Shown here in pieces: positions 3,318 through 60,207 of a DNA stretch of 64,000 nt. Origin of the DNA: Methylotenera sp. (GTDB taxonomy: Bacteria; Pseudomonadota; Gammaproteobacteria; Burkholderiales; Methylophilaceae); contig PERG01000003.1 of the NCBI GenBank assembly GCA_002928535.1, positions 1 through 64,000 of the forward strand. The letters run 5' to 3'. The position numbers and the translations under genes are program-made. Every line of letters starts with the position of its first letter. The stretch's first letter is position 1. The notes under the pieces are model-generated. The model was not told the origin of the DNA and ran no database searches. It was given only the letters and a program-made list of their open reading frames with translations.

Positions 3318-4982
3318 TCAATAGGCCAACATTTCCCGTGCATGTTGACGGGTGATTTCGGTCATCTCCAGGCCGCCCAGCATACGGGCCACTTCATCTA
3401 CACGTGCGCTTTCATTTAGCACTTCTATCGTACTTAAAGTTTGCTGATTTACCTGCGATTTACTGACGCGCAGATGATGCCTGCCTTGGGCTGCGACCTG
3501 CGGCAAGTGGGTAATGACGAGGACTTGCCGCTGTTTGGCTCCATCTTCACCAAGTTGTTTAAGTAACTGCCCCACCACCTCAGCAACCCCACCACCAATA
3601 CCCACATCAACCTCATCGAAAATCATTGTAGGAATATTTTCTTTTTGCGCAGTTACCACCCGAATCGCCAAACTGATACGGGATAACTCGCCACCGGAAG
3701 CGACTTTGCTTAATGGTCGCGCAGTGACACCTGCGTGTCCTGCCACCAAGAAGTCCACCTGCTCCAAGCCATTAACACTCGGTGCCTGCGGGGTTAACGC
3801 CACTTCAAACTTACCCCCGGCTAAAGACAAACGTTGCATTTCCGTACTGATTTTGTCACCAAGTTTTATAGCAGCAGTTTTACGTGCCGCACTTAATCGC
3901 TCTGCTGACTGCATATAATCTGCTAATGCTACTGCTTCTTGCTGGGCAAGAGCGCCATCATCTGCAAACAGCTCCAACTCTTGCATGCGCACTTGCGATT
4001 GGGTTAATAAAGCTGTTAAACCTTCAGGCTGTATGCGGTATTTACGCGCTGTGGTGTGAAGTGTTTGAATCTTGTTATCAAGCTCAGCTAAACGAGCCGG
4101 GTCCAGCTCAGTACGTTGCAGATAACGATTGAGAAAACGGTCTACTTCCTCTAACTGAATAATGGCAGAATCCAGCGTCTCAGCCGCTTCATTTAAACTA
4201 GTATCGAACTCGGCAAGGCCCTGTAACTTGTGCTGGATTTGGGTAAGCATCTGTAATGCAGATACTTCATTTTCACTGAGCAATTCTCGGCAAGTTTCTC
4301 CACCACTTAGTAAACTGGCGCCATTAGAAAGCTTATGATGCTCCTGCTGGAGTTCTTCCCATTCCTCAGGCGTGATGGCCAATTGGGATAATTCACGGAT
4401 TTGGTCACGCACTTCTGCCAACTCATCTGCGTACAAGCCAGCATTTCTTTCGGCTTCCACACGTTGCAAATGTAAGCGATGCCAAACTTTGTAATAGGTG
4501 GCCACCTCGGCCGCTAAGGTTGAAACACCACCAAAATCATCTAAAACGTTTCTTTGTGTAGCGGATTTTAGCAAAGAATGATGGGCATTCTGGCTATAAA
4601 TATCGACCAGGTATTCACCCAGCTCTTTTAATTGCGCAACCGTAACGGTAGAACCGTTAATAAAAGCACGTGAGCGCCCATCCGAATACATCACCCGGCG
4701 CAATACCAACTCTAAAGCATCATGCTCTATTTCAGCTTCATCCAGCCAGTTTTGGGCTTCCATGTTTTGTTGGATATTGAAAATTGCACTGATTTCAGCT
4801 TTCTCAGACCCGGCCCGAGTTACGCCGCCTTCGCCTCTCGCCCCAAGCGCCAGCGATAATGCATCAATGAGGATGGATTTACCCGCACCGGTTTCGCCGG
4901 TTAATACGGTAAACCCTGTAGAAAAATCCAGGTCAAGCTGGCTAACAATGACAAAATCACGGATAGATAAATTCTGCAGCAT
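3318..4982 (-). CDS. recN: DNA repair protein RecN
   Basis: VLTGETGAGKSILIDALSLALGARG Walker A; MIFDEVDVGIGG. Confidence 0.97.
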   Translation of the reverse strand: MLQNLSIRDFVIVSQLDLDFSTGFTVLTGETGAGKSILIDALSLALGARGEGGVTRAGSEKAEISAIFNIQQNMEAQNWLDEAEIEHDALELVLRRVMYSDGRSRAFINGSTVTVAQLKELGEYLVDIYSQNAHHSLLKSATQRNVLDDFGGVSTLAAEVATYYKVWHRLHLQRVEAERNAGLYADELAEVRDQIRELSQLAITPEEWEELQQEHHKLSNGASLLSGGETCRELLSENEVSALQMLTQIQHKLQGLAEFDTSLNEAAETLDSAIIQLEEVDRFLNRYLQRTELDPARLAELDNKIQTLHTTARKYRIQPEGLTALLTQSQVRMQELELFADDGALAQQEAVALADYMQSAERLSAARKTAAIKLGDKISTEMQRLSLAGGKFEVALTPQAPSVNGLEQVDFLVAGHAGVTARPLSKVASGGELSRISLAIRVVTAQKENIPTMIFDEVDVGIGGGVAEVVGQLLKQLGEDGAKQRQVLVITHLPQVAAQGRHHLRVSKSQVNQQTLSTIEVLNESARVDEVARMLGGLEMTEITRQHAREMLAY

Positions 4983-4985
4983 GCA

Positions 4986-5855
4986 TTAACCCCAGTTAAG
5001 CTTAATGCGCAACATATCAAAATAACAATATTCACTCGGATGCAGCAAGGAGATAGTTCTTTCAGCACGCTGGACCAACACCCTATCACCACAAGTCAAT
5101 GCCACTTGTTGCTGGCCGTCAAAACTGAGTTGCGCTTCATCAAACTGCACCATCAGCAACTCGATTTTACTGGCGCTCGGTACCGCAATAGGACGGTTAC
5201 TCAGTGTGTGTGGGCAGATTGGCACCAATGAAATTGCTTCTAATTTAGGATGTAAGATAGGACCACCAGAGGATAATGCGTAGGCCGTAGTACCGGTAGG
5301 TGTACTTAAGATCAGGCCATCCGCGCGCTGACGATATACGAACTGGTCGTCGATTTTGACTTCAAGCTCAATCAGACGCAAATCGCTTTTAACTACTACA
5401 TCGTTCAATGCACAGCCGGAATATAATACTTCGCCATTCCTGATGACTTGCGCTGTCAATAACATACGCGGCTCAATAGCGTATTCCCCAGCTAGAATGC
5501 GGTCAATTGCCAGTAACATATCTTCAGTACGTAAATCTGTTAAAAAACCAAAACGTCCGCGATTAATCCCAACCAGCGGCACATCTGCTTCCAGCAGACT
5601 TCGCGCAACACTCAGCATGGTGCCATCACCGCCCATGACGATGGCCAAGTCGACTTTTTCACCAATTTGTTCAAGGTCTATACTGGAAAAATCATCTAGC
5701 TTGGCATGCTGTGCAGTATTGGTCTCTACATATACTTGCAAACCCTGCTGTTGAAGGTGTTGCGCTAAAGCGATTAACTCTGCACGCATTTGCAGCAGCG
5801 CGCTTGGATTCATGTATTTGCCAATAATGGCAATCGTCTTAAAAGAAATTTGCAT
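4986..5855 (-). CDS. nadK: NAD kinase
   Basis: VMGGDGTMLSVAR; GINRGRFGFLTDL; TPTGTTAYALSSGGPI. Confidence 0.97.
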   Translation of the reverse strand: MQISFKTIAIIGKYMNPSALLQMRAELIALAQHLQQQGLQVYVETNTAQHAKLDDFSSIDLEQIGEKVDLAIVMGGDGTMLSVARSLLEADVPLVGINRGRFGFLTDLRTEDMLLAIDRILAGEYAIEPRMLLTAQVIRNGEVLYSGCALNDVVVKSDLRLIELEVKIDDQFVYRQRADGLILSTPTGTTAYALSSGGPILHPKLEAISLVPICPHTLSNRPIAVPSASKIELLMVQFDEAQLSFDGQQQVALTCGDRVLVQRAERTISLLHPSEYCYFDMLRIKLNWG

Positions 5856-7151: not shown

Positions 7152-8258
7152 ATGGCCTATTACAACCCGGAACCACCCTTTCAGCACGGCGACCAAGCCA
7201 AAGTTGGCATTTTGCTCGTTAATCTGGGTACACCAGATGCGCCAACCGCAAAAGCACTGAGGCCTTACCTCAAACAATTTTTAATGGATAGACGCGTGGT
7301 TGAAATTCCACGTTTCATCTGGTGCTGGATTTTGTATGGCATCATCTTAGTGTTCCGCCCAAGTAAATCTGCAGAAAAATACGCACAGATCTGGAGCAAA
7401 GAAGGCGCGCCTTTATTGGTGCATGCGCAAAAACAAGCTTTATTATTGCGTGGTTTTTTAGGGCAGAAGATCAAGTCACCCTTTGTAGTAGAGTTAGGCA
7501 TGAGCTACGGCAATCCCAGTATGCAAGAAGCGATGGCAAAACTAAAGGCTCAGCACTGCAACAAGATATTGGTTTTCCCACTGTATCCGCAATATGCCGC
7601 CAGCAGCACGGCAGCGGCATTGGATGCCGTATGGAAAATATTATTAAGAATGCGTAACGTGCCAGCGATCCGCACCATCCGAAACTATCATGACCACCCT
7701 GCCTATATTACCGCCTTAGCCGCAAGTGTACGCCAGCATTGGCAAGTGAATGGCAACCCCAGCAAGTTGGTCATGAGCTTTCATGGCGTGCCGAAATTCC
7801 ATCTGCTCAAAGGTGACCCTTACCATTGCGAGTGTCATAAAACGGCGCGCTTATTGGCAGAAGCCCTTGAGCTAAATAAAGACGAATATACCGTTGCCTT
7901 TCAATCGCGCTTTGGTAAGCAAGAGTGGTTGCAACCTTATTTAGCGAACGTACTAACCGCGTTAGGCAAAGCCAAAACCAAACGTATCGATGTGATTTGC
8001 CCGGGCTTTAGCAGTGACTGCCTGGAAACGCTGGAAGAAATTGCCATCGAAGGTAAGGTCATATTTACCGAAGCGGGTGGTGGCGTATATCACTACATTC
8101 CAGCGCTGAATGAAAATGAAGCCTGGATCCATGCCATGACCACGATTGCAATGGAAAATCTGCAGGGCTGGGTGTCCACTGACTGGGATATTGCACTGGC
8201 AAAAAACACCGCGGAAATGACGAAATTACGGGCGCAGGCTATGGGCGCCAAACAATAA
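7152..8258 (+). CDS. hemH: Ferrochelatase
   Basis: ILLVNLGTPDAPT; VMSFHGVPKFHLLKGDPYHCEC; CPGFSSDCLETLEEI. Confidence 0.97.
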   Translation: MAYYNPEPPFQHGDQAKVGILLVNLGTPDAPTAKALRPYLKQFLMDRRVVEIPRFIWCWILYGIILVFRPSKSAEKYAQIWSKEGAPLLVHAQKQALLLRGFLGQKIKSPFVVELGMSYGNPSMQEAMAKLKAQHCNKILVFPLYPQYAASSTAAALDAVWKILLRMRNVPAIRTIRNYHDHPAYITALAASVRQHWQVNGNPSKLVMSFHGVPKFHLLKGDPYHCECHKTARLLAEALELNKDEYTVAFQSRFGKQEWLQPYLANVLTALGKAKTKRIDVICPGFSSDCLETLEEIAIEGKVIFTEAGGGVYHYIPALNENEAWIHAMTTIAMENLQGWVSTDWDIALAKNTAEMTKLRAQAMGAKQ

Positions 8259-8283
8259 GCGTTATACTTTTAAATTACAAAAT

Positions 8284-8398
8284 TCTTGCTATGAAGTGCA
8301 AGGAGCCGCGGAACGAATGACCCAAGAAATTATGAAAAATAAAATGCATCGGCAAGGAATAAGTGAGCACACGACACAGCGATGCGCTCACGGAATGG
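8284..8398 (+). repeat. Family-2 intergenic element, copy 1 (upstream of hldD)
   Basis: CAAGGAGCCGCGGAACGAATGACCCAAG...AGTGAGCACACGACACAGCGATG matches minus strand of 35373-35476. Confidence 0.75.
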
Positions 8399-8402
8399 AT
8401 TT

Positions 8403-9404
8403 ATGATAGTAATTACCGGTGGTGCAGGCATGATAGGTTCCATGATCGCCTGGCACCTCAACCAAAATTCGGGCACTCACCCTGGACGCGACGATTTAGT
8501 GATTGTTGACCACCTGACCCATACCGAGCAGTGGCAAAATCTGGTGAAGCGCCAATATGCCCAATACCTGGACAAGACCGAGTTGCTGGAGTGGCTACAA
8601 GGACGCAAAGACATCAGCGCAGTGATTCATATGGGCGCCATCAGCGCCACCACTGAGCGGGATTTTAATAAGCTAGTGACAGATAATATCCATTACAGCC
8701 AGCAATTATGGCAATGGTGTGTTACGCAAAATGTACCGTTCTTCTACGCAAGCTCTGCTGCAACTTATGGCGATGGTGAGCAGGGTTACGATGATGCTTC
8801 CATTGATAACTTGCGCCCGCTCAATGGCTATGGTTATTCCAAGCACTTTTTCGACCAATGGGCGTTACGCCAGGTCAATACGCAACAGCCTACCCCGCCA
8901 GCTTGGGCTGGATTCAAGTTCTTTAATGTGTATGGTCCGAACGAATACCATAAAGAGCGCATGGCCAGTGTCGCCTTGCACAGCTTTAACCAATTCAGAA
9001 CAACAGATACGGTCAAGCTGTTTAAAAGCCATCGCGAGGGTTATGCGGACGGCATGCAATTGCGCGACTTTGTATATGTGAAAGATGCGGCGGCAGTAGT
9101 TGTCTTCTTTCTGGAAAAAGCTTTGCAAGGAAAGAGCAGCACTAATGGCATCTACAACGTAGGCACCGGCCAGGCACGCGCCTTTAAGGATCTTGCCACA
9201 ACCGTGATGACCAGCATGGGTAGAACTCCACACATTACCTACATTGACATGCCAGATGACTTAAAAGGTAAATATCAATACTTTACTGAAGCTAATATGA
9301 CTAAATTGCGCGCCGCCGGTTATACACAAGCTTTTTATAGCTTGGAAGAAGGCGTACAAGATTACGTGCAGAACTACTTACTGCATGATGATGCCTATTG
9401 CTAA
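8403..9404 (+). CDS. hldD: ADP-L-glycero-D-manno-heptose 6-epimerase
   Basis: MIVITGGAGMIGSMIAWHLN; start at 8403 preferred over 8382 because 8382 lies inside the upstream repeat. Confidence 0.95.
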   Translation: MIVITGGAGMIGSMIAWHLNQNSGTHPGRDDLVIVDHLTHTEQWQNLVKRQYAQYLDKTELLEWLQGRKDISAVIHMGAISATTERDFNKLVTDNIHYSQQLWQWCVTQNVPFFYASSAATYGDGEQGYDDASIDNLRPLNGYGYSKHFFDQWALRQVNTQQPTPPAWAGFKFFNVYGPNEYHKERMASVALHSFNQFRTTDTVKLFKSHREGYADGMQLRDFVYVKDAAAVVVFFLEKALQGKSSTNGIYNVGTGQARAFKDLATTVMTSMGRTPHITYIDMPDDLKGKYQYFTEANMTKLRAAGYTQAFYSLEEGVQDYVQNYLLHDDAYC

Positions 9405-35103: not shown

Positions 35104-35476
<373 letters not shown>

Positions 35477-35487
35477 TACAAATTTCA

Positions 35488-36030
35488 TTATTTTTCATGC
35501 GTTAACTTTTGCTTGATGGCTTGTTCAATCACCGGTGAAACGAAAGCATGGATATCACCGCCTAGGGTAGCCACTTCTCGAACCAGGCTTGAAGAAATAA
35601 ACATAAACTGTTCTGCCGGTGTCAGGAATAAAGTCTCAAATTGCGGATATAGCTTGCGGTTCATGCCAGCTAACTGAAATTCGTATTCAAAATCTGCAGT
35701 AGCGCGTAAGCCGCGAATCACCATCTGTGCGTTCTGGGTTTGGACAAATTGCATGAGCAATCCGGAAAAGCCGATGACTTCTACATTATCCAGGTTCTTA
35801 AACACAGCTTTAGCATGGCTGACGCGTTCTTCAAGACTGAACATGGTTTTTTTATTGGTATTGCTCGCCACTGCAACAATCACCTTAGGAAATAAACTGG
35901 CGGCACGATGCACCAAATCCTCATGGCCTAATGTCACTGGGTCAAATGTGCCAGGGTAGACAACTTTGAGGGCGCTATGAGGCATTGAAATAGTGGGCGT
36001 TGGAATAATATGCGGTGAGGAATCAGTCAT
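35488..36030 (-). CDS. coaD: Pantetheine-phosphate adenylyltransferase
   Basis: VVYPGTFDPVTLGHEDLVHRAASLF; FISSSLVREVATLGGDIHAFVSP. Confidence 0.95.
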   Translation of the reverse strand: MTDSSPHIIPTPTISMPHSALKVVYPGTFDPVTLGHEDLVHRAASLFPKVIVAVASNTNKKTMFSLEERVSHAKAVFKNLDNVEVIGFSGLLMQFVQTQNAQMVIRGLRATADFEYEFQLAGMNRKLYPQFETLFLTPAEQFMFISSSLVREVATLGGDIHAFVSPVIEQAIKQKLTHEK

Positions 36031-60130: not shown

Positions 60131-60207
60131 TGGGGAGTCGCCAAGCTGGTTAAGGCACCGGATTTTGATTCCGGCATGCGAAGGTTCGAATCCTTCCTCC
60201 CCAGCCA
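60131..60207 (+). tRNA. tRNA-Gln (anticodon TTG)
   Basis: Cloverleaf TGGGGAG...CCGGA-TTTTGAT-TCCGG...GGTTCGAATCC...CTCCCCA-GCCA with encoded CCA. Confidence 0.95.

Follow-up and report, generated by a model that had tools for sequence, protein, structure and literature searches.

The window, a 64,000-nt stretch of DNA from a Methylotenera genome, carries two copies of one element, upstream of hldD and of the ferredoxin gene yfhL. The features concerned are listed below; the E-values of the covariance models (R1 and R2, see below) are rough.

7152..8258, plus strand: hemH, ferrochelatase, upstream of copy 1 (TIGR00109, E 7.1e-89)
8263..8268, plus strand: TATACT, -10-like box of hldD, shortly past the hemH stop (about 50 hldD upstream regions compared)
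8273..8402, plus strand: element copy 1, predicted hldD leader (covariance model match C3:8273-8405 including the ATG, E 7.4e-20)
about 8273-8297, plus strand: left arm of copy 1, degenerate (by sequence reading)
about 8299-8326, plus strand: 5' strand of the copy 1 core (a variable tip lies between the 5' and 3' core strands)
about 8360-8382, plus strand: 3' strand of the copy 1 core
about 8384-8402, plus strand: right arm of copy 1, up to the hldD ATG
8403..9404, plus strand: hldD, ADP-glyceromanno-heptose 6-epimerase (TIGR02197, E 4.9e-121)
35104..35364, minus strand: yfhL, YfhL-family 4Fe-4S ferredoxin (NF033683, E 7e-40)
35365..35486, minus strand: element copy 2, coaD-yfhL junction (covariance model match C3:35362-35486, minus, including the ATG, E 7.4e-31)
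35488..36030, minus strand: coaD, pantetheine-phosphate adenylyltransferase (TIGR01510, E 8.4e-55)

Copy 1 is separated from the hemH stop codon by a 14 nt gap, and copy 2 fills the whole coaD-yfhL junction, beginning 1 nt past the coaD stop and ending directly at the ferredoxin ATG. The presence of two related copies at these places, which an earlier note on this DNA had described, is borne out: they share a 5' block (8304-8326, plus; 35455-35433, minus) and a 3' block (8362-8383, plus; 35405-35384, minus), neither of which matches anywhere else in the window when up to three mismatches are allowed, far above the shuffled-window expectation of 0.00 and 0.01, respectively. Sequence reading also agrees with the note that both copies are sense to the downstream gene, and that the spacing from TCAC (8388-8391; 35379-35376) to the ATG is exactly 11 nt in each. 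Target duplications and outer TIRs are found at neither copy, only the inner arms being kept, and neither folds well in isolation (z −0.1 to −2.0). The window copies are worn members of a much larger family.

The 5' block, searched for as a pattern, occurs only twice in the whole assembly, and when copy 1 was compared with its own genome by BLAST, not even copy 2 was retrieved. The picture of only two copies is an artefact, because that search used sequence alone. Pattern searching in 187 genomes from the same family added about 18 genuine copies, nearly all of them immediately preceding the start codons of different genes, in sense. R1, a covariance model built from 16 copies of that search, finds 13 copies in this assembly, 2 of them inside the window, and has matches in 87 of these 187 genomes, spread over 17 of 24 genera. 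The broader model R2 has matches in at least 28 of 399 sampled Pseudomonadota genomes, spread over the order's other families, the class's other families and other classes; these counts are minima, as the survey scored no more than 8 candidates per genome. Elements are about 125-260 bases long. A pattern scan of named genomes places them in Methylotenera, Gallionella, Sideroxydans and other Nitrosomonadales; 4 of the 42 matches it gave, which lie in Clostridia, Verrucomicrobia and Rhodobacteraceae, have no model match and are probably due to chance. The plasmid search yielded a single carrier, a Nitrosomonas plasmid, and the phage search no match of note.

The structure conserved in the family is a rod of ~120 nt, in which long covarying arms surround 2-bp steps split by conserved tandem G.A mismatches. 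The outer arms comprise ~16 bp and covary (e.g., TTTTGTGGG/CCCACAAAA, TTTTATGGG/CCCATAAAA and ATTCGTTTTG/CAAAACGAAT), and the inner rod sets 5'-GC(G)GA-GC-GA-AU-GA-C opposite 5'-G-GA-AU-GA-GC-GA-GC. Among 50 copies, 31 of 33 pairs show two-sided changes, with 245 two-sided-change cells compared to 68 when shuffled and about 49-75 in slid controls. In another set, of 64 distinct copies that R1 had found and from which R2 was not built, there are 567 two-sided cells against 179, and 90.4% are paired against 66.3%; a structure model tends to pick copies that agree with it, yet the slid controls score far lower. The G.A positions of the core are kept in about 35-44 of the 50 copies, and a G.A pair in the tip alternates between A.G (24) and G.A (15); the tandem pairs are probably sheared. 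The rod is also the unconstrained minimum-energy fold of several intact copies, L052, L118 and L285 among them, with z of about −2.7 to −8.5. Optional hairpin modules occupy the same points of the rod across different families. The earlier note had instead proposed a local GTGAGC...GCTCAC stem preserved through a G-U change. This stem is not conserved in the family, where 72.8% of its cells are paired compared to 71.9% after shuffling, whereas the 3' TCAC region pairs with the far 5' arm (92.0% against 73.4%, with 59 two-sided changes against 14.8). We therefore reject the local stem as a conserved structure, its pairing being no better than chance and the far arm being strongly supported.

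Placement is equally well defined. Of 187 distinct copies, 130 (85 distinct loci) have their right end at a gene boundary: 76 are sense, with a start codon no more than 15 nt from that end (42 distinct loci), and 54 are antisense, with a stop codon at that end (43 distinct loci), though the gene calls behind these counts are ORF-based and the sense class may be inflated by the training of R1 on start-adjacent copies. In 28 of the 76, the ATG forms the last three model positions. Copies were again mostly start-adjacent in the scan of named genomes, whose pattern did not use the start codon. A start codon lies within 12 nt of the element at 33 of 59 sense loci compared to 9 of 40 antisense loci (Fisher p 0.001), and stop codons near the element show the reverse trend (20 of 59 compared to 31 of 40, p 3e-5). 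Random orientation and spacing of further copies, which the earlier note had named as the outcome that would speak against it, are thus not what is seen: spacing is strongly biased and orientation follows the gene end. Since orientation is tied to the gene end, the sequences suggest that the right end of the element, and not the left, may be compatible with translation initiation. Two descriptions offered by the note, a "mobile 5'-UTR cassette" and a "dispersed repeat that tends to sit at gene starts", are in essence correct, since the element is of the MITE type and its sense copies abut the starts of many unrelated genes; what they leave out is the antisense copies, which directly follow stop codons. 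Antisense copies occupy the atpD-atpC junction in this genome (L047, contig C7 of G000) and in G128 (L324), with the atpD stop inside the right arm, and the gap-pgk junction has comparable antisense copies (L050, L285, L301 and L339). At L151, in Sideroxydans, two copies with different ends (4097-4219 and 4921-5045) stand in one operon, preceding two nearby genes, PTS IIA-like and PTS enzyme I-like.

The mobility of the family is most clearly seen in two genomes, G405 and G456. G405, a single-contig genome of the same order, has near-identical copies bounded by CAGGCCGTTGAAAAAC inverted repeats, with 4-bp duplications CTAA, TTAG, TTAA, CTAG and GTAA; NTAN duplications of 4 bp flank nearly all copies examined in the two genomes. 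The CAGGCCGTTGAAAAAC-bounded elements span 142-258 bp, including further size variants of 173, 206, 236 and 258 bp, the last three of which carry hairpin modules just where Methylotenera and Gallionella copies have them. G456 also has a 1,325-bp element with the same CAGGCCGTTGAAAAAC ends and an intact IS5-family transposase frame (NF033581, transpos_IS5_4, E 4.5e-91). Such an IS resembles the shorter elements of G405 and G456 in its ends and NTAN duplications, but no counterpart of their core is seen inside it, and no autonomous partner with the Methylotenera ends turned up in a search of the Methylophilaceae. Other ends surround the same core elsewhere: GGAAACGCTGAAG with CTTA, CTAA or CTAT, TGAAACCTCTG with TTTG, and, in another class, GAGCTTGTGAATAAATCG. 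The core is therefore shared and the ends are exchangeable. In G133 and G135, which are Methylotenera-like, copies are bounded by the TIR AGGGCACTTCTATAAAT. Matches to this intact end number 68 in G135 and 41 in G133, compared to 9 and 6 in controls, in the same genus as the window, which suggests recent activity of the element in both; in the genome of the window, AGGGCACTTCTATAAAT is essentially absent, with 5 matches compared to 6 for the reversed control. The family has short non-coding bodies with TIRs, flanking target duplications, many dispersed and recently moved copies, and an autonomous partner with the same ends (in G456); to judge from these sequence features, it fits the definition of a MITE, and the window copies belong to it by descent, having lost the outermost repeats. 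NTAN-type targets account for the hits on stop codons (NTAA) and on TTATG starts, and in full-ended copies the target sequence runs into the start codon (e.g., GAGGTGCCC-TTATG at L334).

The history of insertion can be followed at both loci of the window. In most relatives, the coaD-yfhL junction is empty, coaD ending 0-11 nt ahead of the ferredoxin start; it is filled by the element in this genome, G129, G139, G160, G133, G135 and a few others, and by a sibling subfamily in G113 and G118. Upstream of hldD, a TTATACT/TTATAAT box is kept in nearly all orthologues, with or without the element. Short hldD alleles have the box about 37 nt ahead of the ATG, and in this genome, G121, G173 and others the element sits between the two, a position that predicts a 5' leader. 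The box is a putative promoter element, so called solely from its conservation; scanning the region ahead of hldD for promoters produced no hit above chance and no consensus -35. One-arm remnants also occur at hldD, with the right arm alone in G163 and G118 and the left half alone in G131. Copies at the same locus are mutual nearest neighbours in 48 of 64 cases, compared to 1.7 when shuffled, so most copies were inherited and not repeatedly acquired; the yfhL junction, with its two subfamilies, is an exception to this pattern. The hldD leader has other occupants as well. In several Methylophilaceae where the element is missing, the stretch from the -10 box to hldD holds a small, conserved ORF (MKNIxFNF...FNxTVKWLKxK, ~20-25 codons; L216, L218, L227, L229, L234, L238, L261 and L274). 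Another hairpin repeat (GGCGCGAxxAAAAAATTGCG...AGTAATTTTTTxTGAGC) is found in the leaders of L214 and L226 (G142 and G156), which makes this leader a hotspot where repeats of more than one family insert.

Taken together, the two elements are very probably worn copies of a widespread MITE-type element that inserted at gene boundaries and now form mRNA leaders or start regions. Mobilization would occur in trans, most likely by IS5-family transposases, whose shared ends are seen in one relative and extrapolated to the Methylophilaceae. Insertion would take place at TA-containing targets that overlap TAA/TAG stops and TTATG starts at co-directional junctions, the codon being restored by the target duplication or by the element's own end. 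The gene downstream of a sense copy would then take its leader and translation-start region from that copy, whose right arm ends at the AUG or contributes a GAGG-like ribosome site a few nt ahead of it. Such insertions happened at hldD and yfhL in this genome, with copies persisting by descent and some decaying to single-arm scars. Copy 1 would most likely act as the inherited leader of hldD, and copy 2 is most likely the coaD-yfhL spacer, its right arm being the predicted translation start region of yfhL. Transcription of the elements, as well as any effect on translation or mRNA stability, is inferred.

A different interpretation is a mobile cis-regulatory RNA in which the leader binds a host factor or forms an RNase III or ribosome-access switch, with hldD, yfhL and others as its regulon. 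Sense copies abut start codons far more than antisense copies do, the hldD copies lie between the conserved -10 box and the ATG, several copies are kept at the same locus across genera, and core changes among fdx orthologues are compensatory in 32 cases and broken in 17 (null 8 and 47). However, the core rod with its tandem G.A pairs forms on one strand only, and the antisense copies, whose mRNA is the complement without G.A pairs, hold the structure at least as well: their orthologues show 49 compensatory and 5 broken core changes (null 19 and 48), compared to 71 and 131 (null 28 and 189) in sense copies, a comparison that is suggestive only, as some antisense sets may be separate insertions. 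Were the rod in the mRNA what selection sees, antisense copies would be expected to lose it; selection acting on the element itself in single-stranded form, or on source copies, is an explanation at least as good. The hldD copies, moreover, show decay: they have 70 broken core changes, scars occur, and many orthologues are empty. A riboswitch or regulon would be expected to show linked downstream functions and structure only in sense; the 85 loci are unrelated and without a common theme, about half of them are antisense, and antisense copies are equally structured. We consider the cis-regulatory reading rather unlikely. A regulatory effect, as in the "shared post-transcriptional element" of the earlier note, is possible but unproven.

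Preservation of the structure in both orientations, and one core within different ends, would follow if the core had to act as single-stranded DNA, in a hairpin that is extruded while the DNA replicates or transposes and is read by a host protein or the transposase, with selection independent of orientation. Sheared G.A pairs form in DNA too, but we know of no requirement for single-stranded DNA hairpins in IS5-family (DDE) transposition, and we regard this reading as doubtful, if a serious candidate. A functionless dispersed palindrome, with arm covariation arising by template-switch quasi-palindrome correction and placement by purifying selection against insertions within genes, would suit the arms, which are imperfect palindromes, the mostly intergenic location, and the scars and decay. 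Template switching, however, would convert the core G.A pairs to Watson-Crick pairs, when in fact they are conserved, one of them swapping between A.G and G.A, and placement depends on orientation; this reading therefore appears very unlikely. Copy 2 is open for about 30 codons, but a small peptide gene ahead of hldD and yfhL is next to inconceivable and was rejected, given the frame-breaking indels and hairpin insertions between copies and the early stops of copy 1 in the same frame. The MITE-type reading itself leaves one feature unaccounted for, as a structured core across unrelated ends is unexplained by plain selfish mobility; to our knowledge, ordinary MITEs do not keep one. A tentative extension, which we think improbable, is that the tandem-G.A rod, with its optional hairpin domains, is reused as a MITE core with unrelated ends across Pseudomonadota because its sense insertion at a start codon is tolerable, the element being a ready-made leader, a self-insulating mobile 5' UTR, kept at hldD, yfhL and other housekeeping genes.

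Bacterial MITEs are usually viewed as structureless passengers between two inverted repeats. The general features of prokaryotic MITEs (PMC10969869) are all common to the present family: they are short, non-coding, TIR-bounded, dispersed, intergenic and hairpin-forming, they are flanked by target duplications, and an autonomous IS has the same ends. The present family differs in its detailed core, with conserved non-canonical pairs common to unrelated ends in several families, and in a placement locked to start and stop codons by orientation. By its description in PMC10969869, the Chunjie MITE of Geobacter uraniireducens (Chen et al. 2008) has similar size variants (178-235 bp) and likewise sits within an operon, whose structure it leaves undisturbed. 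REPs, which are 20-40 nt long and tied to RAYT tyrosine transposases (PMC2817692, PMC3116915), many of them with GTAG/CGTC tags (PMC3733652), are, like REPINs, dispersed, palindromic, extragenic and non-autonomous, as is the present family; unlike them, it is 125-260 nt long with IS5-type ends, and no such tag occurs at the element ends in the sequences examined. BOX/SPRITE repeats and QMITEs are small mobile repeats transcribed in UTRs with stable hairpins, but belong to other species and sequences, and the passages covered (PMC10969869, PMC5896051, PMC3049150) contain no tandem G.A rod. Thiomargarita MITEs (PMC4853749) are set apart, by description, by other duplications, and intrastrand triplex repeats (PMC4666352) were rejected, since their G-rich three-stem pattern mismatches the element.

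Rfam at the gathering threshold gave no match for the window elements or strong family members, and only chance-level matches at E up to 10; the open-access literature on such repeats in Betaproteobacteria yielded no description of the element. The kind of element, a MITE, is already known, and the new aspects are the shared structured core and the codon-level placement. A fold shared by many families with different ends poses the testable question of why a non-coding passenger conserves its fold, and base-exact placement that of how mobile DNA supplies new leaders to essential operon genes. For annotators, the family is a warning that like leaders before unrelated genes need not mean a regulon. 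The only Rfam match in the window is a tRNA gene at 60131-60204 on the plus strand.
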